A stretch of DNA of 64,000 nt. Source: Natronococcus sp. CG52. Its GTDB lineage: Archaea > Halobacteriota > Halobacteria > Halobacteriales > Natrialbaceae. Positions 26,550 to 38,429 of this stretch are shown here, one piece after another. How positions within the stretch are numbered: the stretch's first letter is position 1; every line of letters begins with the position of its first letter. Below the pieces are notes generated by a model. That model saw only the letters and a program-made list of their open reading frames with translations. It was not told the DNA's origin and did no database searches. The position numbers and the translations under genes were made by a program. The DNA is taken from contig NZ_CP099391.1 of assembly GCF_023913515.1 (NCBI RefSeq), positions 2,232,001 to 2,296,000 on the forward strand. The letters run 5' to 3'.

Positions 26550-27656
26550 CTACCGGGCGCGCTGTGCCGGGAGCGTGAACGTAAAGACCGACCCCTCACC
26601 GGGTTCCGACTCGACCCAGATTCGGCCGTTGTGGCGTTCGACGATCCGCCTGCAGAGGGCGAGTCCGATACCGCTGCCCGCGTGTTCGTCATGGCTGTGG
26701 AGTCGCTGGAACAGTTCGAAGATACAGTCCTGATCCTCGGACCGGATGCCGACGCCGTCGTCGTCGACCGAGATCTGCCACTTCGTGCCGCGTCGCTCCG
26801 CGGAGATGTGTATTCTGGGCCGCTCCTCGCCGCTGTACTCGATCGCGTTGTTCAGGAGGTTCTGGAAGACCTGCCGCAGTTGATCGGCGTCACCCAGGAT
26901 GTGGGGCAGGGGCTCCCGTCCGATCTCGACGTCGCGTTCCTCGATTTTCATCTGCAGATCCTCGAGCGCCTCGTCCAGAACGACGTCCAGATCGGTGGGC
27001 TCCAGCGGGCTCCTCTGGGTATCGACCCGCGAGTACTCGAGCAGTCCGTCGACCATGTCTCGCATCCGGTTCGCGCCGTCGATGGCGAACTCGAGGAACT
27101 CCTCGCCGTCCTCGTCGAGATCCTCCTCGTACCGCTGTTCGATGAGTTGCAGGTAACTCGAGACCATCCGCAACGGCTCCTGGAGATCGTGGGAGGCGGC
27201 GTAGGCGAACTGCTCGAGGGATCTGTTCGACTCCTCGAGTTTCGAGATGTAGTGCATCAGCTCTCGGGACTGCTTGCGCCGAACGAGCAGGGTGTTCAGC
27301 CGCCGAAAGAGGAGGTTGCGATTGAGCGGGGCATCCACGATGTCGTCGACGAGTAGCGGGGGCTCTCGCTCGTTCGGTCCGGGCAGCGTGATCTCTCGCC
27401 GGTTGTCGTCGCGCCGGATGAGCACGACGGGGCAAAACACGGGATCACACTCCTCGACGCGCTCGAGGAGAGTGTCGCGGTACCTGGGAAACGAGTGGTC
27501 GTCGACCAGATACAGGTCGACCTCGTTGACCGACTGGTCCGTGTCGACGTCGTACTGATCGTCGAGTAGCTCCTGGACCGCGTTGCGATTTCCGTCCTCG
27601 GTGATGAGCAGTTGAACCGTGCTCACCTGATCTTCCGTTCCCATGGTGGAAGCCAC
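26550..27656 (-). CDS. Sensor histidine kinase with an N-terminal receiver-like domain
   Basis: The 368-residue soluble protein has an N-terminal receiver-like domain (about 12-120; acidic residues E20/D21 and D52 present, but no Lys is seen at the usual K-P site), a short coiled linker (about 125-150), the HisKA H-box with His156 in ASHDLQEPLR, and an HATPase_c domain with N-box NLLNNAIEYS and G-boxes DDDGVGI and GSGIGLALC. It has no membrane segment, so it senses something in the cytoplasm. It follows the KaiC-like gene by 28 bp on the same strand and is likely co-transcribed. Confidence 0.88.
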   Translation of the reverse strand: MASTMGTEDQVSTVQLLITEDGNRNAVQELLDDQYDVDTDQSVNEVDLYLVDDHSFPRYRDTLLERVEECDPVFCPVVLIRRDDNRREITLPGPNEREPPLLVDDIVDAPLNRNLLFRRLNTLLVRRKQSRELMHYISKLEESNRSLEQFAYAASHDLQEPLRMVSSYLQLIEQRYEEDLDEDGEEFLEFAIDGANRMRDMVDGLLEYSRVDTQRSPLEPTDLDVVLDEALEDLQMKIEERDVEIGREPLPHILGDADQLRQVFQNLLNNAIEYSGEERPRIHISAERRGTKWQISVDDDGVGIRSEDQDCIFELFQRLHSHDEHAGSGIGLALCRRIVERHNGRIWVESEPGEGSVFTFTLPAQRAR

Positions 27657-27684
27657 ATCGCTTCGATAGTCCGGTGTGAGTCGG

Positions 27685-29157
27685 TCATTCGTTTTGCACA
27701 GTCTTACTCGCCTTCCCTACCCGTGGTGTTCCCTGAAGAATACCGTAGAGACCCGTCAGCGGTTCACCGACGCGGATTCCGTCGGACGTGATCTCGAACT
27801 CGCGAAGCGTCTTTTCGAAGTCGCCAGTGCGCTTTTTGAGCACGCCGATGACCTTGCGGAGACTGCCGTCCCTCTCGACGTAGCTGACGAACGCGATGTT
27901 GTCGGCGATATAGCTGAGCTGATTGTCCGTCGCCTCGGAGATGCCGGTAATCTCCGAAATTTCGTTCGTGATCAGCACCGTTATTCCCTGGTTCTTCAGA
28001 TACCGCGTTAGTGCGTGAAGCTTTCGGACGAGAACTCGCTCCCGGCCCTGGATCGAGATGGTGTAACCGTCGATTCCGTCGATCATCACGATGTCCGTGT
28101 CCTGCTCTTCGACCTGCTCTCTGACCATGTGGGCGAACTCCTCGCTGGAGAGCGCGAGCGGTTCGACTTCGGTCACCTGGAGGGTTCCTTGCTGGCGCAT
28201 CTCCGCGACGGGAATGTCGATCGACTCGGCCCGGTGTGTGAACGTCTCGATATTCTCTTCGAACAGGTAGATGGCCGAGTTCAGCCCGTCTTTGGCGGCC
28301 TGGGTCAGCAGTTGCGTCCCGGTTGACGTCTTGCCGGCCCCCGTCGGACCGCTGATAAACGTTACCGTCCGCTGGTCGAATCCGCCCCCGAGCAGGTCGT
28401 CCAGTTCGTCGATACCGGAGTGGATTCGCTGGGATTTGAACGTCTGTTCGCGCGGTTCGGGAACGAGATGCGGAAAGATCTCGAGACCGTTCTCTCGGAT
28501 CGCCATGCCGTGATCACCGCCCATCTGCCCGAGTGCGCGGTGTTTCGTCGCTTCGATCCGACGACCGCTTTCCTCGCGGGTCAGTTTGATGATGCCGTCG
28601 CTGAGCGATCGAAGCTCCGTATCGTACTCCGGTTTGGAGTTCAGTGTTGCCGTTACGAGGACGGTGATCTCGTGCTGTTTGAGAAACCGCATGAACGACA
28701 GGATCCGCTTTCGGAACTGGTACTCGTTGGCCTCGACGTACCTGAGTTGCGAGATCGGATCGAGCACGACGCGCGCCGGATCGATCTCCTTGATCGCTTC
28801 GTGGATCTCCTGTGTATACCGGTCGCGTTCGATGTCGCTCGGCTCGACCAGATCGTAGGAGTTGTCGTCCGCGAAGAAATCGGACTCGGGACCGAGATCG
28901 AGGAACTCCGCGTCGCCGATCTCGATGTTAACTGCGGAGCCGTTGGCCAGGATCTCCCGCCGAGATTCTTCCCCGTGGATGAACAGGACCGTCTCGTCGT
29001 TCCGTAGCCCCTGCTCTAAAAAGTGCATCCCAAGTAGCGTCTTCCCGGTACCGGGCTCCCCGTGAACGAGGTACATCCGGCCTTTGGCGAGCCCTCCGTT
29101 GAAAATCTCGTCCAGGCCGTTGATCCCGCTGTTTATCGGTGTAATGTTGGATGCCAC
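27685..29157 (-). CDS. Double-domain KaiC-like RecA-superfamily ATPase
   Basis: The 490-residue protein has two KaiC domains, each with a Walker A motif (GEPGTGKT at 33-40; GPTGAGKT in the second) and a catalytic Glu pair (HGEESRREI; FEENIETF). Full-length two-domain KaiC homologs in haloarchaea are associated with light or metabolic signalling; clock function is not established. The start is a GTG at 29157, with a TATA-like TTAATAA at about 29182-29189 spaced for a leaderless message. The next gene is a soluble histidine kinase, recalling the KaiC-SasA pairing of cyanobacteria. Confidence 0.9.
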   Translation of the reverse strand: MASNITPINSGINGLDEIFNGGLAKGRMYLVHGEPGTGKTLLGMHFLEQGLRNDETVLFIHGEESRREILANGSAVNIEIGDAEFLDLGPESDFFADDNSYDLVEPSDIERDRYTQEIHEAIKEIDPARVVLDPISQLRYVEANEYQFRKRILSFMRFLKQHEITVLVTATLNSKPEYDTELRSLSDGIIKLTREESGRRIEATKHRALGQMGGDHGMAIRENGLEIFPHLVPEPREQTFKSQRIHSGIDELDDLLGGGFDQRTVTFISGPTGAGKTSTGTQLLTQAAKDGLNSAIYLFEENIETFTHRAESIDIPVAEMRQQGTLQVTEVEPLALSSEEFAHMVREQVEEQDTDIVMIDGIDGYTISIQGRERVLVRKLHALTRYLKNQGITVLITNEISEITGISEATDNQLSYIADNIAFVSYVERDGSLRKVIGVLKKRTGDFEKTLREFEITSDGIRVGEPLTGLYGILQGTPRVGKASKTVQNE

Positions 29158-31361: not shown

Positions 31362-31577
31362 ATGATCACCTGTACCAACTGCGAGACCCCCCAGTTCCTG
31401 CAGATCATCCAGAGCCGCGTCTACTTCGAGGACGGGGAGATGATCAACGAGGTCTCCGAGTCCTACGAGTGTACCCTCTGTGGCGGAACCGGCAAGTACG
31501 TCTACGACGAGGAACGAGACGAGGAGACCGTCTCTGGGGACGTCGAACTCACGACGGAGCGACCGAAGTTCGCCTGA
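31362..31577 (+). CDS. Small zinc-finger protein of unknown function
   Basis: From ATG 31362 the frame encodes 71 residues with two CxxC knuckles, CTNC at 4-7 and CTLC near 39-42 followed by GGTGKYVYD, then an acidic tail. The pattern resembles a small zinc ribbon with a DnaJ-like CxxCxGxG knuckle. An upstream in-frame ATG at 31278 would add non-acidic residues and is not preferred. It converges with the gas-vesicle cluster. Confidence 0.7.
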   Translation: MITCTNCETPQFLQIIQSRVYFEDGEMINEVSESYECTLCGGTGKYVYDEERDEETVSGDVELTTERPKFA

Positions 31578-31647: not shown

Positions 31648-32010
31648 TCACTCCGAGGCCGTCTCGTCGTCTCCCTCGGACCTGTCGACGCTCTTCTGTC
31701 TCTTCCGGCGATCGACCGCGAACTCCTCCAGTTGCGCAAGATCCTCGAGGTCCTCGTCCGGATCGACCCGCTTCTTTCTCTTGCCGTACCGCCGCCGCTC
31801 AACTGCACGGGTTCGCCGGTCGGTATCCCACTCCTCGAAGAGGCCGTACTCGGTCATCGTCTCCATGCCGGCGATCGCTGCCGAGAGCTTGATGCCGACG
31901 AGCGGAATCTCCGCGACGGAGATGATCACGTCTGCGCGAACGATGGCTCCGTCGCGGAGTAACACGTCCAGCACGTCGACGAACGTGTCCTCGTTCTTTT
32001 CTGGTTTCAT
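31648..32010 (-). CDS. gvpM: Gas vesicle protein GvpM
   Basis: The 120-residue GvpA-family protein (from ATG 32010) has the conserved core DVLDVLLRDGAIVRADVII followed by VAEIPLVGIKLSAAIAGMETM, then a charged tail. GvpM is a minor accessory protein needed to start vesicle assembly in Halobacterium and Haloferax. Its start overlaps the gvpL stop by 4 bp; it is the last gene of the minus-strand gvp operon. Confidence 0.92.
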   Translation of the reverse strand: MKPEKNEDTFVDVLDVLLRDGAIVRADVIISVAEIPLVGIKLSAAIAGMETMTEYGLFEEWDTDRRTRAVERRRYGKRKKRVDPDEDLEDLAQLEEFAVDRRKRQKSVDRSEGDDETASE

Positions 32011-32897
32011 GTGTCTCCGTTGCCGCCCAGTTCGGGCGCGAACGTGTACGGTGGCCACGGCCCGCTGAACCGGACCTCGAGTCCGGGCGCCGCCGCGACG
32101 TCGTCGAGCAGCGAGCCGATAGCCTCCTCGTCGTTTTCGTGGGCGAGCAGGGTGAGCCGACAGAGCGTCTCCCCCTCGTCAGTCGCCTCCGAACCGGCGA
32201 CGTCGCCGATGGCCGCGCTTGGCGACCGCTCGAGCGCGTGAACCTCCCGGGTGACGTCCGCGAGCCGCTCCCGGAGGTCGTCGGTGAGCGACTCCCGGCG
32301 CGCCCGCTGGAGTTCTTTCACGCGCTGGTCGTACTGCTTCTCGAGCAGAAACGCCGCCCCCTCCTCGGAGTCGGAAATCTGCTCGTCGAGTTCGCGCAGC
32401 CGCTCGTCGCGTTCGAGCAGCGCCTCGTCGCCGATCGGCTCGGTTTCGACGACCTCGACGCGATACTCCCAGTGGTCCGCGAGTTCCGTCAGCGCTCGCT
32501 CGAGCATCTCCGACTCCTCGCGGAGCCACTCGCGGACGCCGCCGTCGTCGCCGCGGAGGATCGTGTCGAACTGGAACGGGATCGGCGTGCCGAAGGCATC
32601 GCCCGCCTCGTCGACGACGGTCTGGTGGCGGACGAGCCACCGCTTGATCTCGGTGAGGTCGGCGGAGTCGTAGATTTCGTCACACGAGTGGACGACCGCG
32701 CCGATACCGTCGACGGCGACGATCGAGACGGGTTCGCCGTCGACGCCGTCCGTCTCGAAGGTAACGTCTTCGTCAGCCTGGACGATACAGTAGAGGTACC
32801 GCCCCTCGTCGATCTCCGGACGCTCTCCCGCATCCGGATCGTCGATCTCCTCTAAGTCCTCGAGGTCGGGTTCGGGATCTCCAGTGCCGGCGGTCAT
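32007..32897 (-). CDS. gvpL: Gas vesicle protein GvpL
   Basis: The 296-residue protein belongs to the GvpL/GvpF family: N-terminal [12 protein letters not shown], a central coiled-coil region (about 170-225) and C-terminal [13 protein letters not shown], the family's closing motif. GvpL is proposed to bind other accessory Gvp proteins during assembly. The ~25 acidic N-terminal residues before the domain are a halophilic extension. It overlaps gvpK and gvpM by 4 bp each. Confidence 0.93.
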
Positions 32898-33238
32898 TCG
32901 TTATCACCTCCGAACACGGAGTAGCCCGGCTTCCGGTGGGCTGCGGGATCGGCGTCGAGCCGTTCGATCGCGTCCGTGACCAGTCCGTCCAGATCTCCCC
33001 GGAGATCGTCGACGCCGTCCTCGATCCCCTCGTCGCGCTTGAGCTGCTCGATCTCCGCCTCGATCGTCGCCAGCTGACGTCCGAGCCGATCGATCTCCTC
33101 GTCGGAGAGGGCGTCGGACTCCATCCGGCGAACGGCCTCGCGCTCAAGCGCCTCGATCAGGATTTCGACGACCGTTATCACGAGCGTGATGAGCCCATCC
33201 CGCGCCTCTTCGCCGTCGCCGACGTCGATCGCAGTCAT
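32894..33238 (-). CDS. gvpK: Gas vesicle protein GvpK
   Basis: The 114-residue protein has the GvpK signature: [20 protein letters not shown], then a helical segment with [16 protein letters not shown]. GvpK is one of the small set of accessory proteins required for vesicle formation. It sits between gvpJ and gvpL with 4-bp overlaps on both sides. Confidence 0.93.
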
Positions 33239-33798
33239 CGCTCGTTCTCCTCCGCGTCGGATTCGGTCGTTTCGTCGCCGTTCTCACCCTCGTTGGACTC
33301 GCCGTCCGCCTCGTCTTCGCGTTCGTCGCCCTCGGCGTCGTCACTGAGCAGGTTGAAGCCGCCGCCGATCGGCTGTTTGGGGGCGGGCGTAGCGCCGAGA
33401 TGGTCGGAGATGCGGTCGACTTCGATCGTTCCGTCTTCGTCGCTTCCCTCCGTCTCGCTCTCACTGCCGTCCTCCGCCTCGGGATTGGGCGTGACGTTGA
33501 CGCCGCGCGTCGCATCGATCATCGGCTTGGGTCGCTCCATCTCTGCGAGTTCGGGCTCGTCGACGGCCTCGGCGAGCCGGCGCATATCCGTTCCCTCGGG
33601 GAACTCGAGGCCGTATTTCGCTGCGGTCTCGAAGGAGGCGATGGCGGCCCGGACCTGGATGCCGAGCAGTTGCGTGTCGCCGATCGAAACGGCGATGTCC
33701 GCGTTGATGACGATCCCTTTGTCGAGCAACATCTCGACGACCTCGGCGAGGTCGGCCTTCTGTCGGCTGGGCTGGAAATCATTCGGCACGGGTCTCAC
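33235..33798 (-). CDS. gvpJ: Gas vesicle protein GvpJ with a long acidic tail
   Basis: The GvpA-like core lies at residues ~14-68 ([19 protein letters not shown], then [21 protein letters not shown]). The remaining ~115 residues are disordered and rich in Glu, Asp and Ser, longer than in most GvpJ proteins. The start is GTG 33798. It overlaps the 48-codon ORF upstream and gvpK downstream. GvpJ is a minor vesicle component or assembly factor. Confidence 0.92.
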
Positions 33799-33925
33799 CT
33801 CGGTTCGTCGCTTGCTCAGTCCGGGCGATCGGGCCCGGTACGCCTGTGCCTCGATCGAAATCGCTCGATAGTCTCGAGGCGGTCGTCACCCGGTTCTTCC
33901 GTCGGTTGTGTGTGAAATCACTCAT
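33779..33925 (-). CDS. Possible 48-residue basic ORF between the gvpI-position gene and gvpJ
   Basis: The frame from ATG 33925 overlaps the stop of the upstream gene (ATGAGTGA) and runs 20 bp into gvpJ. It encodes a slightly basic, Arg-rich 48-residue peptide. The dense overlap on both sides is how the rest of this operon is built, but basic composition and small size leave coding status open. Confidence 0.4.
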   Translation of the reverse strand: MSDFTHNRRKNRVTTASRLSSDFDRGTGVPGPIARTEQATNRGETRAE

Positions 33926-34835
33926 TGTTCTGTTTTCGTCGTTCTCGTTCGATTTCGAACCGCCGGCCGTAGATGCGCTTGAGAGCCGGCGCCGTCGAGA
34001 GCTTTACCTGCTGCGGGACGGTCGAGTGACGCGCCCCGCCGCCGAGATCGCGTCTGTTCGTCGCTATCGTCGACGCTGCCGTCGGATTTCGGGATGACGG
34101 GGTCGTATCCTGGCGACGCATCTTCTCGCGGTTCGTCTCGTAGAGCTTCTCGAATTTCTCGTGGGTTACGAGCAGCGCATCCCGGAAAGCGTCGATCCCT
34201 TTCATCGCCTGCTGCTGAATGAACGTCTGGTAGGCTTCCGGATCGTTCTCGATGTCGGGTTTGTCGAACGCCTCCTTGGCGGCCTCGGTCGCGTCCATAT
34301 CCGTCCCGAGAAACTCGTCGTCATCGTCGCCGCCGAGCAGGTCCGCTCCCTCGTCGGCGACCGCCGAAGCGGCCTTCTCGACCATGCCGGCGTCCTCGCT
34401 CTCGTCCGCGAGACCGTCGACTGCGTCCTCGAGTTCGCGTTTCTCCTCCCAGATATCGCCCAGATCCGTCGCGTCCCACGCGTTCAGCAGGTTGATCGCC
34501 TTGAACACCTGCGTGAAGTCGACGACGTCGCCGGCGCCCGTCTCCTCGTCCGTCAGCGCGTCCGGGATCTCACCCGTTTCGATCGCCTCGAGCAACTCGC
34601 CGCCGTCGACGGCCTCGGGAAGATCGGTCAGGTCGAGCGCCTCGATTAGCTCGGCGGTCTCCTGGGCGACCCGCGCGAGGGCGTCGATGTCGCCCAACAG
34701 CGACTCGAGGTCGTCGTTCCCGACCCCCTCGAGGTCGTCGACATCGCCGAGGGACTCCTCGACGTTGTCGAGAGCGGCCTCTGCTTCCGAAAGCAGCTCC
34801 GCAAACGTCTCGTCGTCGCCGTTCTCGTCGGTCAT
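33918..34835 (-). CDS. Gas-vesicle cluster protein at the gvpI position (acidic N-terminus, basic C-terminus)
   Basis: The 305-residue protein has a strongly acidic, mostly helical N-terminal part (about 1-235; TFAELLSEAEAALDNVEESL, and FTQVFKAINLLNAWD in the middle) and a basic, Arg-rich tail of about 65 residues containing STAPALKRIYGRRF. In Halobacterium the gene between gvpH and gvpJ is gvpI, a short basic protein; the tail here may be its counterpart fused to a new domain. That match is from memory and position. It overlaps gvpH by 4 bp and ends at the 48-codon ORF. Confidence 0.6.
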   Translation of the reverse strand: MTDENGDDETFAELLSEAEAALDNVEESLGDVDDLEGVGNDDLESLLGDIDALARVAQETAELIEALDLTDLPEAVDGGELLEAIETGEIPDALTDEETGAGDVVDFTQVFKAINLLNAWDATDLGDIWEEKRELEDAVDGLADESEDAGMVEKAASAVADEGADLLGGDDDDEFLGTDMDATEAAKEAFDKPDIENDPEAYQTFIQQQAMKGIDAFRDALLVTHEKFEKLYETNREKMRRQDTTPSSRNPTAASTIATNRRDLGGGARHSTVPQQVKLSTAPALKRIYGRRFEIERERRKQNNE

Positions 34836-35380
34836 CGGTTCTCACCCTCCGAGGGCGTGGAGTCCGTCTCGCGTTCGGGTTCGACCGTCACGGTGAGCAC
34901 GCCGTTATTGATCGTCGCGTCGACCGTTCTGTCGCGCCAGGGGACGTCGACCCGGTCGAGCTCGCTCCCGGAGACGGCGACGACGAGCGTCGAATCGTCG
35001 AATCCGACGGTGACGTCTTCCGGGTCGACTCCGGCGACGTCGGCCGTGACTACCAGTTCGTCGTCGTAGACGGACGTCGCCAGGTGATGCGAGTCCGATG
35101 GTTCTCGGCGATGGCGTCGCTTCCGCGGCCGGTCGGCGACGCCGTCGGTCTCGTCGTCAGACCGGATCGAATCGAATGAATCGCCGATAGAGCGATCGAT
35201 CCCGGTGTCGACGGAGATGTCGTAGTCCATCGTCGTGCGATCGCCGCGCCGTCGTCCCGATAGCCGCCCGTCGTTGCGCTCGAGCGAGTCGAGCGCCGAG
35301 AGCAGGGTCGTGAGCCAGTGCGGCGTCTCGTCGCGGTCGTCGTCCGATTCGTTCGATCTGTCGGTTGGATTGTCGCTCAT
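34832..35380 (-). CDS. gvpH: Gas vesicle protein GvpH (Hsp20-like)
   Basis: The 182-residue protein has a charged disordered N-terminal half and a C-terminal alpha-crystallin-type domain (about 95-170; ATSVYDDELVVTADVAGVD, then DATINNGVLTVTV, the small-heat-shock I/V motif region). GvpH stabilises other Gvp proteins in haloarchaea. Its ATG overlaps the gvpG stop by one base (TAATG). Confidence 0.88.
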   Translation of the reverse strand: MSDNPTDRSNESDDDRDETPHWLTTLLSALDSLERNDGRLSGRRRGDRTTMDYDISVDTGIDRSIGDSFDSIRSDDETDGVADRPRKRRHRREPSDSHHLATSVYDDELVVTADVAGVDPEDVTVGFDDSTLVVAVSGSELDRVDVPWRDRTVDATINNGVLTVTVEPERETDSTPSEGENR

Positions 35381-35634
35381 TATCGTTTCACCTCCACGCG
35401 GCCGCTCGAGAATCGCTCGTGCACTTCGCGTGCGATCTCGATCTCTTCCTCGATCTCTTCCTTGCGGCGCCGGTACTCCTCCTCGGGGCGTTCGCCGAGT
35501 TCGTACAGCAACTGGTTCTCCTTGAGGTCGTCCTCGAGTGCGTTCAGGTCGTACATCTCGTCGAGCGCGATCGAGTGAAGCGCGTCGATGATACCGACGA
35601 ACGGTCGAAACAGGAGGTCATCGAGGACGAACAT
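35380..35634 (-). CDS. gvpG: Gas vesicle protein GvpG
   Basis: The 84-residue protein has a hydrophobic N-terminus (MFVLDDLLFRPFVGIIDAL) and a long charged coiled-coil helix (LNALEDDLKENQLLYELG, then EEEYRRRKEEIEEE), the GvpG pattern. It is an essential accessory protein, and lies 11 bp after gvpF. Confidence 0.92.
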   Translation of the reverse strand: MFVLDDLLFRPFVGIIDALHSIALDEMYDLNALEDDLKENQLLYELGERPEEEYRRRKEEIEEEIEIAREVHERFSSGRVEVKR

Positions 35635-35645
35635 GGCCTACTCGC

Positions 35646-36275
35646 TCACCCCTGAGCACCAATCTCGACGTTGACAAAGCTGTACGGTGCGAACGGCCCC
35701 GTGTACTGGAACATGAGTTCGTCGCCGTACTCGTCTTCGAGGCCGGCGACCGCGTCGTCGAACTCCTCCTGGTCGTCCTCCTCGACGAGGTACGAACGGT
35801 TGAACACGAGCCGGTCGCTGAACAGGTCGTCCGGGACCGACTGCGCGGCGATCGGCTCGAGTTCGTCCGCGACGGCCTCCTCGATCGCCTCGCGATCGAC
35901 GTCGGCGTCCTCCTCGCGAACGAGTTTGAGGCCGAGTTCGATCTTGCCCTCGATGTCGCGCAGCGCGCGCCTGAACGCCGGCTGTGCGCCGCGCAGGACG
36001 TTCTTCAGCTCCCGGTCGCCCTCGAAGGCCATCCCGAACTGCATCGGAACGATCGTCTGGCCGCCGTCGTACTCCATGATTTCCCGGAGGACGTCGTCGT
36101 GGCACTGGGCGTCTTCGTCGGTCTCCTCCGGCTCGGTCGTATCGATGTCGGAGACGACAGCCCCGTATCGGCGGTGAGTGACGGTGTAGACGCGATCGGC
36201 GCCGGCGACGGCGTCGGTTTCGAACTCGATGTCGTCGTTGGCTTCGACGACGCCGTAGACGTACTTGTGACTCAC
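35646..36275 (-). CDS. gvpF: Gas vesicle protein GvpF
   Basis: The 209-residue GvpL/F-family protein has N-terminal KYVYGVVEANDD and C-terminal TGPFAPYSFVNVEI. GvpF binds GvpA and is thought to keep it monomeric before assembly. It is the first gene of the minus-strand operon, and the start codon is GTG 36275. No gvpE or gvpD follows upstream as in Halobacterium; instead gvpA is divergent about 260 bp away. A 26-codon ORF ends on this start. Confidence 0.93.
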   Translation of the reverse strand: MSHKYVYGVVEANDDIEFETDAVAGADRVYTVTHRRYGAVVSDIDTTEPEETDEDAQCHDDVLREIMEYDGGQTIVPMQFGMAFEGDRELKNVLRGAQPAFRRALRDIEGKIELGLKLVREEDADVDREAIEEAVADELEPIAAQSVPDDLFSDRLVFNRSYLVEEDDQEEFDDAVAGLEDEYGDELMFQYTGPFAPYSFVNVEIGAQG

Positions 36276-36432
36276 GGGCGAATCACCGTCCGTTCCGCTG
36301 TCTGTGGGCGCAACCGTACGTCTCGTCCGAACTGGATGTGTATTGATGTCATAGGAACCTCGCGGTGAGATGAGAGCTGGCCAGTCGAATGCTCGTTGAC
36401 AGTAATTCGGCTGCCGCGCGCGTTACCGTAGT

Positions 36433-36493
36433 GCTTGCAGTAGCAGCGTCGGTTCCTTATCCGAAAACAGGTGGCGGGCTTGCAGTAGCAGCG
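36433..36493 (+). repeat. Two 16-bp direct repeats upstream of gvpA
   Basis: GCTTGCAGTAGCAGCG occurs at 36433-36448 and again at 36478-36493, exactly 45 bp apart, in the divergent gvpF-gvpA regulatory region. The second copy ends 39 bp before the gvpA ATG. Candidate activator or repressor sites, since no GvpE/GvpD regulator gene is present. Confidence 0.6.
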
Positions 36494-36532
36494 ACAGCCG
36501 TGTTACCCATCGGTGCTCAACTGCTGAATGCT

Positions 36533-36817
36533 ATGGCAAACCAACGAAGACCCGACGCCTCGAGTCTCGCGGAAGTACTGGACCGCGTCCTCGACAAAGG
36601 CGTCGTTATCGACGTCTGGGCGCGTGTCTCGGTCGTCGGGATCGAACTGCTAACGATCGAAGCTCGTGTCGTCGTCGCCTCCGTCGACACCTTCCTCCAC
36701 TACGCGGAGGAGATCGCAAAAATTGAGCAAGCGACGGCAGAAGGCGACATCGAAGACCTCGAGGAACTCGAGATCGAGCAGCGGCCGGAGTCCTCGCCAC
36801 AGTCCACCTCCGAATAA
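36533..36817 (+). CDS. gvpA: Major gas vesicle structural protein GvpA
   Basis: The 94-residue protein from ATG 36533 has the near-invariant GvpA core: [19 protein letters not shown], then [18 protein letters not shown] and [17 protein letters not shown]. It polymerises into the ribbed vesicle wall. The acidic tail after residue ~70 ([18 protein letters not shown]) is somewhat longer than in Halobacterium GvpA. An earlier in-frame ATG at 36389 lies in the promoter region and is rejected. Confidence 0.95.
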
Positions 36818-36822
36818 TCGAC

Positions 36823-37866
36823 ATGGGGGATTCGTCTTCGCGTGAGCGAAAGGTCCGCGGCCGAAAGATCCGCTCGGACCGCAGCCAGAAGAAGCGTCGG
36901 AAAGCGAAGAAAAAAGCGAAGAAGGAATTCGATCGGACCGCGAACGGAACGAAAAGCGGTGTACAGAGCGGAGGCGCGGACTCCGTTCTCAAGAGTCCCG
37001 AGGAGGTCACTCCCGACCCGTTCGTCGAGACCGACGCAGTCACGTCGCTGCGAGACCGGATCACCGGCTGGCTCGAGGCCGATCAGCCGGTTCACCTGAT
37101 CGGACCGACCGGTTGCGGAAAGACGGCGCTCGCGCTCTCGGCAGCGGCCGAGCGCGGCCGACCGGTCGTCTGGATCAACGGCGACGAGGCCGTCGGCACC
37201 GCCGAGCTCGTCGGCACCCACGCCGGCGGCGAGCGCTACGAGGAGCACGACCAGTTCGTCAGCGGCGTCAACAAGAAGACCCAGATCGTCCGCGAGCGGT
37301 GGGTTGACAACCCGCTCTCGGTCGCCGTCAAGGAAGGCGCGACGCTGGTCTACAACGAGTTCTCGCGGAGCGATCCCGCGGCGCACAACGTCCTCCTCTC
37401 CGTACTCGAGGAGGGCGTCCTCGAGCGGCCGGGCAAGCGCGGCTCCGACCGGACGATCGACGTCCACCCCGAGTTCCGGCTGCTCGTGACCTCGAACGAC
37501 GTCGAGTACGCCGGCGTCCACGAACAGCAGGACGCGCTGCTCGATCGGTTCGTCGGCGTCCACGTCGACTACTACGACGAGGAGACGGAACGCGCGATCG
37601 TCGCCGCCCACTCCGACGCCTCCGACGAAACCGTCGAGGAGATCGTCGGAGCGACGCGCCGACTCCGCGACGAACTCGACGTCGTCGTCGGAACTCGAGT
37701 CGCGATTACGGTCGCGGAGGGACTCACGGTCTTCGCCGAGGACGACGGCAGCGAGTTCGACGACGAGTTGCTGGCCGACGTGTTTACAGACGTTCTCGCG
37801 CCGAAGATCGCCGGCGAAGACGACGATATCGACGAGTTCCGAGAAGCAATTCGCGACGCACTCTAA
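36823..37866 (+). CDS. gvpN: Gas vesicle protein GvpN (AAA ATPase)
   Basis: The 347-residue MoxR-like AAA+ protein has Walker A GPTGCGKT near residue 94, Walker B-like ATLVYNEFSRSDP near 178, a sensor-1 region (FRLLVTSND) and the arginine-finger loop LLDRFVGVH. The first ~40 residues are highly basic (RSQKKRRKAKKKAKK), unusual in a halophile. GvpN strengthens vesicle enlargement. It follows gvpA by 5 bp; gvpC, normally between them, is absent. Confidence 0.93.
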   Translation: MGDSSSRERKVRGRKIRSDRSQKKRRKAKKKAKKEFDRTANGTKSGVQSGGADSVLKSPEEVTPDPFVETDAVTSLRDRITGWLEADQPVHLIGPTGCGKTALALSAAAERGRPVVWINGDEAVGTAELVGTHAGGERYEEHDQFVSGVNKKTQIVRERWVDNPLSVAVKEGATLVYNEFSRSDPAAHNVLLSVLEEGVLERPGKRGSDRTIDVHPEFRLLVTSNDVEYAGVHEQQDALLDRFVGVHVDYYDEETERAIVAAHSDASDETVEEIVGATRRLRDELDVVVGTRVAITVAEGLTVFAEDDGSEFDDELLADVFTDVLAPKIAGEDDDIDEFREAIRDAL

Positions 37867-37892: not shown

Positions 37893-38429
37893 ATGGCCGA
37901 GGCAGACACGAACTCCGCAGATCAGTGCCAGGCGCTCACCGGGGACGGCGAGCGCTGTTCGCGCCCAGCACAGGACGACGGGTTCTGTTATCAACACGAC
38001 GAGAGTGATCAGACCGTGAGCGACAGTCAAACAGCCGAGACGGAACAGGACGAACAGGAACAAGAGCAAGAGCAAGCCGACCAGGACGCGCAGTCCGCCG
38101 ACATGGCCACGGACGAAACGACCGATCCCAGTGACGTCGATACGGACGACGTCGACGAGGACGACGACATCGCCGGCGTCCTCGCGGTCCGACAGACGGT
38201 CGAATCGACCGCCGGACAGATCGTCGGCCACGAATTCGATGGCGTCAGCGAGATTTCGCCCATGGACGAGGGCTGGCGCGCAGTCGTCGAAGTCGTCGAG
38301 CGATCGGCGGTGCCCGACACGCAGGACATCATCGGACGATACGAGATCGAACTCGGCGGAGAAGGCGTCGTCCAGGGCTACCGACGGCTCGACCGCTACC
38401 GTCGCGGAGATACGATGGCGTTCGAGTGA
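37893..38429 (+). CDS. gvpO: Gas vesicle protein GvpO with an N-terminal zinc-binding extension
   Basis: The 178-residue protein has the GvpO domain at its C-terminus (GVSEISPMDEGWRAVVEVVE, then DIIGRYEIELGGEG and GYRRLDRYRRG). Ahead of it are an acidic/Gln-rich linker (about 37-90) and a small cysteine module, C12-x9-C22-x9-C32-x2-H35 (TGDGERCSRPA, then FCYQH), of the type seen in short DUF5763-like zinc modules. GvpO is required for vesicle formation; the zinc module is an addition I do not expect in Halobacterium GvpO. Confidence 0.9.
   Translation: MAEADTNSADQCQALTGDGERCSRPAQDDGFCYQHDESDQTVSDSQTAETEQDEQEQEQEQADQDAQSADMATDETTDPSDVDTDDVDEDDDIAGVLAVRQTVESTAGQIVGHEFDGVSEISPMDEGWRAVVEVVERSAVPDTQDIIGRYEIELGGEGVVQGYRRLDRYRRGDTMAFE

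Follow-up and report, generated by a model that had tools for sequence, protein, structure and literature searches.

Introduction

In Halobacterium, GvpI is a basic and nonessential gas vesicle protein whose deletion leads to very long vesicles, according to the passages on this gene in four papers (PMC7688916, PMC4390858, PMC9501494, and PMC9372576). Three of them describe binding of GvpI to GvpH, GvpL, and GvpF and also to GvpC (PMC7688916, PMC9501494, and PMC9372576), and GvpH is given there as its strongest split-GFP partner. The Halobacterium salinarum protein is short, with 113 residues on pNRC200 and, for the protein of the published studies, a mass of 15.8 kDa. Haloarchaeal GvpC is described in this literature as nonessential, built of helical repeats, and influencing vesicle shape, and the archaeal experiments they report used gvpC-type clusters of Halobacterium or Haloferax. 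A long GvpI has been in print since 2012, when Nmag_0338 of Natrialba magadii and Htur_2370 of Haloterrigena turkmenica were reported, and the basic observation of a long form is therefore already known; the passage of that paper on the two proteins mentions neither unlinked paralogs nor a link with gvpC across clades (PMC3403918).

Here we analyze a long GvpI from Natronococcus sp. CG52, encoded in a 64,000-nucleotide stretch of DNA (the window). Judging by the published description of Nmag_0338 and Htur_2370 (PMC3403918), it is probably the same form. New here are the mutual exclusion of gvpC and long GvpI in a chosen set of clusters, the off-cluster relatives GvpI2 and GvpI3, and the way in which this family tracks GvpK. 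For the family surrounding GvpI (GvpI2, GvpI3, and X1 to X3), a search of the open-access literature gave no account, which at that scope is not proof of novelty.

The gvp cluster of the window

The 305-residue open reading frame (ORF) named in the preliminary description is present with an ATG start and lies on the minus strand, which had not been given. Its ATG is at 34835, so that its first bases overlap the 3' end of the gvpH frame. With gvpH and gvpJ as neighbors, it sits in the H-I-J slot where haloarchaeal GvpI is found, as had been proposed. The minus strand carries gvpF-G-H-I-J-K-L-M, and the plus strand carries gvpA-N-O (Table 1). The only Pfam or NCBIfam match of the window GvpH is Hsp20. 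gvpN follows gvpA directly, with no gvpC in between, and profiles built from Halobacterium genes found no gvpC, gvpD, or gvpE in the cluster. The gvpA frame has a long N-terminal run-in, and its true start is probably the internal ATG.

Table 1. Coordinates of the gvp cluster, of the parts of GvpI, and of the unlinked operon in the same genome
Feature	Position	Strand	Basis or remark
gvpM	31648..32058; start may be 32010	-	Pfam and/or NCBIfam
gvpL	32007..32897	-	Pfam and/or NCBIfam
gvpK	32894..33238	-	Pfam and/or NCBIfam
gvpJ	33235..33798	-	Pfam and/or NCBIfam
gvpI, long form, 305 aa	33918..34835	-	ORF and homology
GvpI, basic tail, residues 243-305, rest of GvpI core	33921..34109	-	NPTA, three ST-x-(P/A), RIYGRRF
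GvpI, conserved predicted long helix, residues 198-242, GvpI core start	34110..34244	-	mean pairwise identity 0.79
GvpI, variable acidic linker, residues 146-197	34245..34400	-	mean pairwise identity 0.47 over 141-197
GvpI, N-terminal domain (acidic, all-helical by prediction), residues 1-145	34401..34835	-	common to GvpI2 and GvpI3
gvpH (Hsp20-like)	34832..35380	-	homology to annotated gvpH in L047 and L048
gvpG	35380..35634	-	Pfam and/or NCBIfam
gvpF	35646..36275	-	Pfam and/or NCBIfam
gvpA	36389..36817; likely start ATG 36533	+	Pfam and/or NCBIfam
gvpN	36823..37866	+	homology to a gene annotated gvpN in L046; AAA domains are the sole Pfam match
gvpO	37893..38429	+	Pfam and/or NCBIfam
X1	own genome, C1 1132243-1133274		
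X2	own genome, C1 1133277-1133744		
X3	own genome, C1 1133790-1134488		
GvpI3	own genome, C1 1134531-1135334		

Two features lie beside the cluster. A small cysteine-rich, zinc-ribbon-like ORF (31362-31577, plus strand) is convergent with gvpM, and a very similar ORF occupies the same position in another locus (L107, 10602-10817). A few kilobases past gvpM on the same strand are genes for a KaiC-family ATPase and a histidine kinase (26550-29157), a possible regulator pair; the ATPase has a GvpD P-loop match just below the cutoff.

The protein is a long GvpI

The preliminary description saw in this ORF a protein that replaces gvpI. Pairwise searches gave E values of 0.2 to 0.3 (tblastn of plasmids, against Halobacterium genes annotated gvpI) and 6.5e-7 (phmmer, among the frames of the loci examined). 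A profile made from 34 long Natrialbaceae forms alone recovered all 14 short GvpI proteins at E values from 7.5e-13 to 0.003, with 0.027 for the best other frame of those loci and 0.47 for the best of 700 shuffles; profiles that also contained short forms had been used to choose the 14, and the scores of L046 and L052 were alike. In hhalign, residues 208-293 aligned with residues 19-106 of Halobacterium GvpI (96.2%, E value of 2.2e-9). An unrelated protein in place of gvpI is ruled out by the long-form profile and by this alignment, and replacement gives way to homology: judged by these comparisons, the ORF is gvpI itself in a long form, and the tail with the helix preceding it, about 100 C-terminal residues, is the GvpI core. 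No Pfam or NCBIfam model gives a match above its cutoff for either the window protein or Halobacterium GvpI; a PF04652 match at an E value of 0.24 was disregarded.

The two proteins share the H-I-J gene order, a core of about 85 to 100 residues with the motifs N-P-(T/A)-A, ST-x-P, and R-(I/L)-Y-G-x-R, and the basic character of that core (pI of 11.9 for the short Halobacterium GvpI and 10.66 for residues 204-305 of the window protein). They differ in that Halobacterium GvpI does not have the N-terminal domain, that its cluster contains gvpC, gvpD, and gvpE, and that the long protein as a whole is acidic (net charge of -52, pI of 4.05).

Because homologs of the ORF occur in 61 of 100 genomes, its own included, and dN/dS values against three relatives of the genus are below 1, the ORF is real and more than a chance frame. 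These values were 0.25 to 0.33 for the whole ORF, 0.30 to 0.37 for residues 1-140 (purifying selection), 0.42 to 0.82 for residues 141-197, and 0.10 to 0.16 for residues 198-305. A frameshift or misassembly as the source of the two-part protein is ruled out by the full-length frame, which is open in most homologs, and a viral origin was dismissed since a viral_contigs search returned no related locus.

Domain layout and a proposed adaptor role

The acidic and then basic layout proposed in the preliminary description holds: net charge is -55 for residues 1-180 (pI of 4.05) and +9 for residues 237-305 (pI of 11.55). The 10 other Gvp proteins of the window cluster are all net negative, GvpM by just -3. 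The tail is basic and carries the motif pointed out there, STAPALKRIYGRRF, with STAP at 280-283 and RIYGRRF at 287-293. Over the 34 rows, invariant core sites are NPTA 250-253, T256, TVP 272-274, STAP 280-283, and RIYG 287-290. The "long acidic helical part" is acidic as described, and its helices are predicted by low-confidence models (mean pLDDT of 52.5 for the full length and 66.7 for the N-terminal part alone). Foldseek with these weak models returned nothing at an E value of 0.001 or below, and a PDB sequence search gave no significant match (best E value of 0.0013, without a significant stretch).

From homology, domain layout, selection, and genome association we infer that GvpI is probably a two-headed adaptor in gvpC-less vesicles, within a larger and partly dispersed gas vesicle gene set. 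By analogy with Halobacterium, the basic tail would clamp the acidic accessory proteins GvpH, GvpL, and GvpF and so restrain vesicle elongation. The N-terminal domain would offer another docking surface, of importance in the absence of GvpC, and might in gvpC-less systems supply part of what GvpC contributes in Halobacterium.

The charge pattern could also be read as an intramolecular shield unrelated to GvpC, in which the acidic N-terminal domain folds onto the basic tail and keeps it from nonspecific contacts with RNA or acidic proteins until GvpH or GvpL competes the domain away. A charge of -55 against +9 within one chain fits such a shield, as does the variable acidic linker, which would permit folding back, and GvpI3 likewise has a short basic tail after an acidic N-terminal part. 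Proteins of halophiles are generally acidic anyway, however, and the hydrophobic and aromatic residues L53, P73, P91, L116, and W120, invariant in all 34 rows, exceed what a charge shield needs, which leaves us regarding the shield as unlikely.

Long GvpI and gvpC exclude each other in the clusters compared

We mapped gvp genes in the window and in loci taken from genomes and from plasmids. Among 69 clusters containing F, I, and K, which were chosen (the clusters of all 12 short-GvpI genomes, pNRC200, and selected long ones) rather than drawn at random, GvpI was short in 13/13 clusters with gvpC and long in 56/56 without it, and none of the GvpI proteins examined from clusters with gvpC had the N-terminal domain. 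gvpN accompanied all 13 gvpC clusters and 17 of the 56 gvpC-less ones, and gvpD 9/13 and 0/56, respectively. One genome (G042) carries both types, a long GvpI in L017 (F to L seen) and a short GvpI with gvpC in L212, and all its gvpC matches are confined to the second cluster.

In a quick joint tree of GvpF and GvpL, the 13 gvpC clusters form a single clade on the GvpF side (SH-aLRT of 99) and require two changes on the GvpL side. Since they are one clade for GvpF, the link between gvpC and short GvpI may go back to a single event, with which both loss and gain of the N-terminal domain would fit. That clade also speaks for taking the domain as a lineage marker with no vesicle role of its own, its association with gvpC being hitchhiking from one ancestral loss or gain. 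We think this improbable: purifying selection acts on residues 1-140, whose pairwise identity over the 34 Natrialbaceae rows still averages 55%, and the domain has been retained in two paralogous branches.

A GvpC-GvpI fusion was ruled out, as the two proteins have no detectable homology (hhalign of 2.1%, the sole pairing being 19 columns of helix). For the same reason, that the long GvpI takes over from GvpC, as the adaptor reading has it in part, can only be conjectured.

A search for hidden gvpC covered 101 of the 138 genomes with GvpK and gave a match in 16, namely, the 12 short-GvpI genomes, G042, G247, and weakly G036 and G024. In G247 gvpC is followed directly by gvpK in an odd cluster in which no gvpA and no F to J were found; judged by eye, the G036 match is a GrpE-like coiled-coil protein encoded next to a DnaK-like gene. 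Among the 101 genomes, hidden gvpC in long-GvpI genomes is thereby dismissed beyond L212, the G247 cluster, and the two weak matches. The Natrialbaceae long-GvpI clusters examined here have no gvpC. This is at odds with table 1 of PMC9501494, which gives gvpACNO for Natrialba magadii and others, and the pertinent passage of PMC3403918 says that GvpC is lacking.

Relatives outside the gvp cluster

The N-terminal domain and the core recur together outside gvp clusters as GvpI2 and as the more distant GvpI3. The genome that holds the window has a GvpI2, a second full-length, two-domain relative of GvpI, directly downstream of pdxS (C1:3219405-3220184; L031 7406-8185), with no gvp gene within the 16 kb examined around it. 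pdxS was present in 13 of the 28 GvpI2 loci examined. A quick tree put all GvpI2 rows but L125 (27 of 28) into one branch (SH-aLRT of 100), with L125 elsewhere, and the branch also holds the cluster-borne GvpI of L034, L035, L072, and L088. In one genome (G290), GvpI2 adjoins a lone gvpA homolog apart from the main cluster (L119, 6949-8438).

GvpI3 matches residues 1-122 of GvpI with its N-terminal domain (hhalign of 97.4%, E value of 9.6e-12) and ends in a basic tail that is short and contains two ST-x-(A/P)-like motifs and no RIYGRRF. It is the last gene of an operon, X1-X2-X3-GvpI3, which in the genome of the window is unlinked to the gvp cluster (C1:1132243-1135334; L150 4244-7335). None of the four proteins has a Pfam or NCBIfam match above the cutoff. 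X1 contains a domain of about 50 residues, DLxGLFLDLLGLEV...LLGNLL; X2 and X3 look glycine-zipper-like by eye, the Pfam matches for X2 being below the cutoff.

Distribution of the family follows GvpK

We investigated 341 haloarchaeal genomes, with counts not corrected for relatedness; Fisher p values, likewise uncorrected for phylogeny, are given no weight. GvpK was found in 138 and a GvpI family member in 140, with both in 137. The family occurs without GvpK in G023 (a GvpI3) and in G156 and G336 (each with remnants of a decayed GvpI2 directly downstream of pdxS), and GvpK occurs without GvpI in G247 alone, the genome with the odd cluster. Short GvpI and nothing else was seen in 12 of the 138 genomes with GvpK. 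The long GvpI is the form in most gas vesicle haloarchaea of the sample and the gvpC type is the minority form; the two-part protein is not a fusion private to this genome.

X1 was present in 112 genomes, 111/138 with GvpK versus 1/203 without (G023). In hand-assigned sets, the figures were 89/138 versus 1/203 for GvpI3 and 42/138 versus 0/203 for GvpI2, the decayed remnants in two GvpK-negative genomes aside. X1, GvpI2, and GvpI3 were each found in 0/12 short-GvpI genomes, and X1 was missing from 15 of the 126 other genomes with GvpK. The GvpK-negative genomes G039 (genus g5) and G113, G156, and G336 (g8) are without X1, GvpI2, and GvpI3, and their relatives with GvpK mostly carry them. G023 (g16), without GvpK, retains the whole operon; G236 (g8), with GvpK, lacks X1 and keeps X2, X3, and GvpI3. 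The preliminary description had raised the occurrence of the N-terminal half outside gvp clusters in an unrelated role. It does occur there; the unrelated role was not borne out, as the host genomes in the sample carry GvpK with few exceptions.

In several families, X1/X2 or the whole operon is linked to gvp clusters: gvpH and gvpI are separated by X1 and X2 in L037, L040, L081, and L086, the operon adjoins gvpO in L064, L075, L163, L164, and L165, and X1 is part of the cluster or no more than about 3 kb away from it in 14/56 gvpC-less loci versus 0/13 gvpC loci. In Natrialbaceae, most GvpI2, GvpI3, and X genes are far from the gvp cluster. Because their distribution across genomes tracks that of GvpK, we take GvpI2 and the GvpI3 operon as probable additional, partly dispersed gas vesicle genes.

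These genes might instead serve another process that shares a lineage with gas vesicles, e.g., a stress or surface function. Their distance from the cluster in Natrialbaceae, the operon kept by G023 without GvpK, and counts uncorrected for relatedness all agree with that. Against it stand the 111-to-1 co-occurrence of X1 with GvpK, the absence of X1, GvpI2, and GvpI3 from four GvpK-negative genomes whose relatives with GvpK mostly have them (with GvpI2 remnants in two), the linkage to gvp clusters in several families, and the GvpI2-type GvpI inside four clusters. We hold such a separate process to be quite unlikely.

Beyond the adaptor role of GvpI, we tentatively propose that most gas vesicle haloarchaea use a gvpC-less variant in which GvpI, GvpI2, and GvpI3 together with X1 to X3, partly encoded off-cluster, do the shape and strength work of GvpC; we give this wider proposal somewhat less than even chances. 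Should the dispersed family have a role in vesicles, the parts list accepted so far would fall short for most species, and a gvp cluster transferred by itself from one of them would leave components behind. It would also permit a direct test of how vesicle shape is kept up without GvpC. Gas vesicles also find use as contrast agents in ultrasound, for which the strength of the shell is important.

Two further loci have unusual features. In a gvpC-type cluster from Natrialbaceae (G013; L061, 10184-11431), GvpC is divergent, and its terminal motif resembles the C terminus of X3 by eye. In a draft genome (G003; L045), gvpI is split by a stretch reading SEMCIRDR and RDVYKRQ in two frames, which looks like a leftover sequencing adapter.
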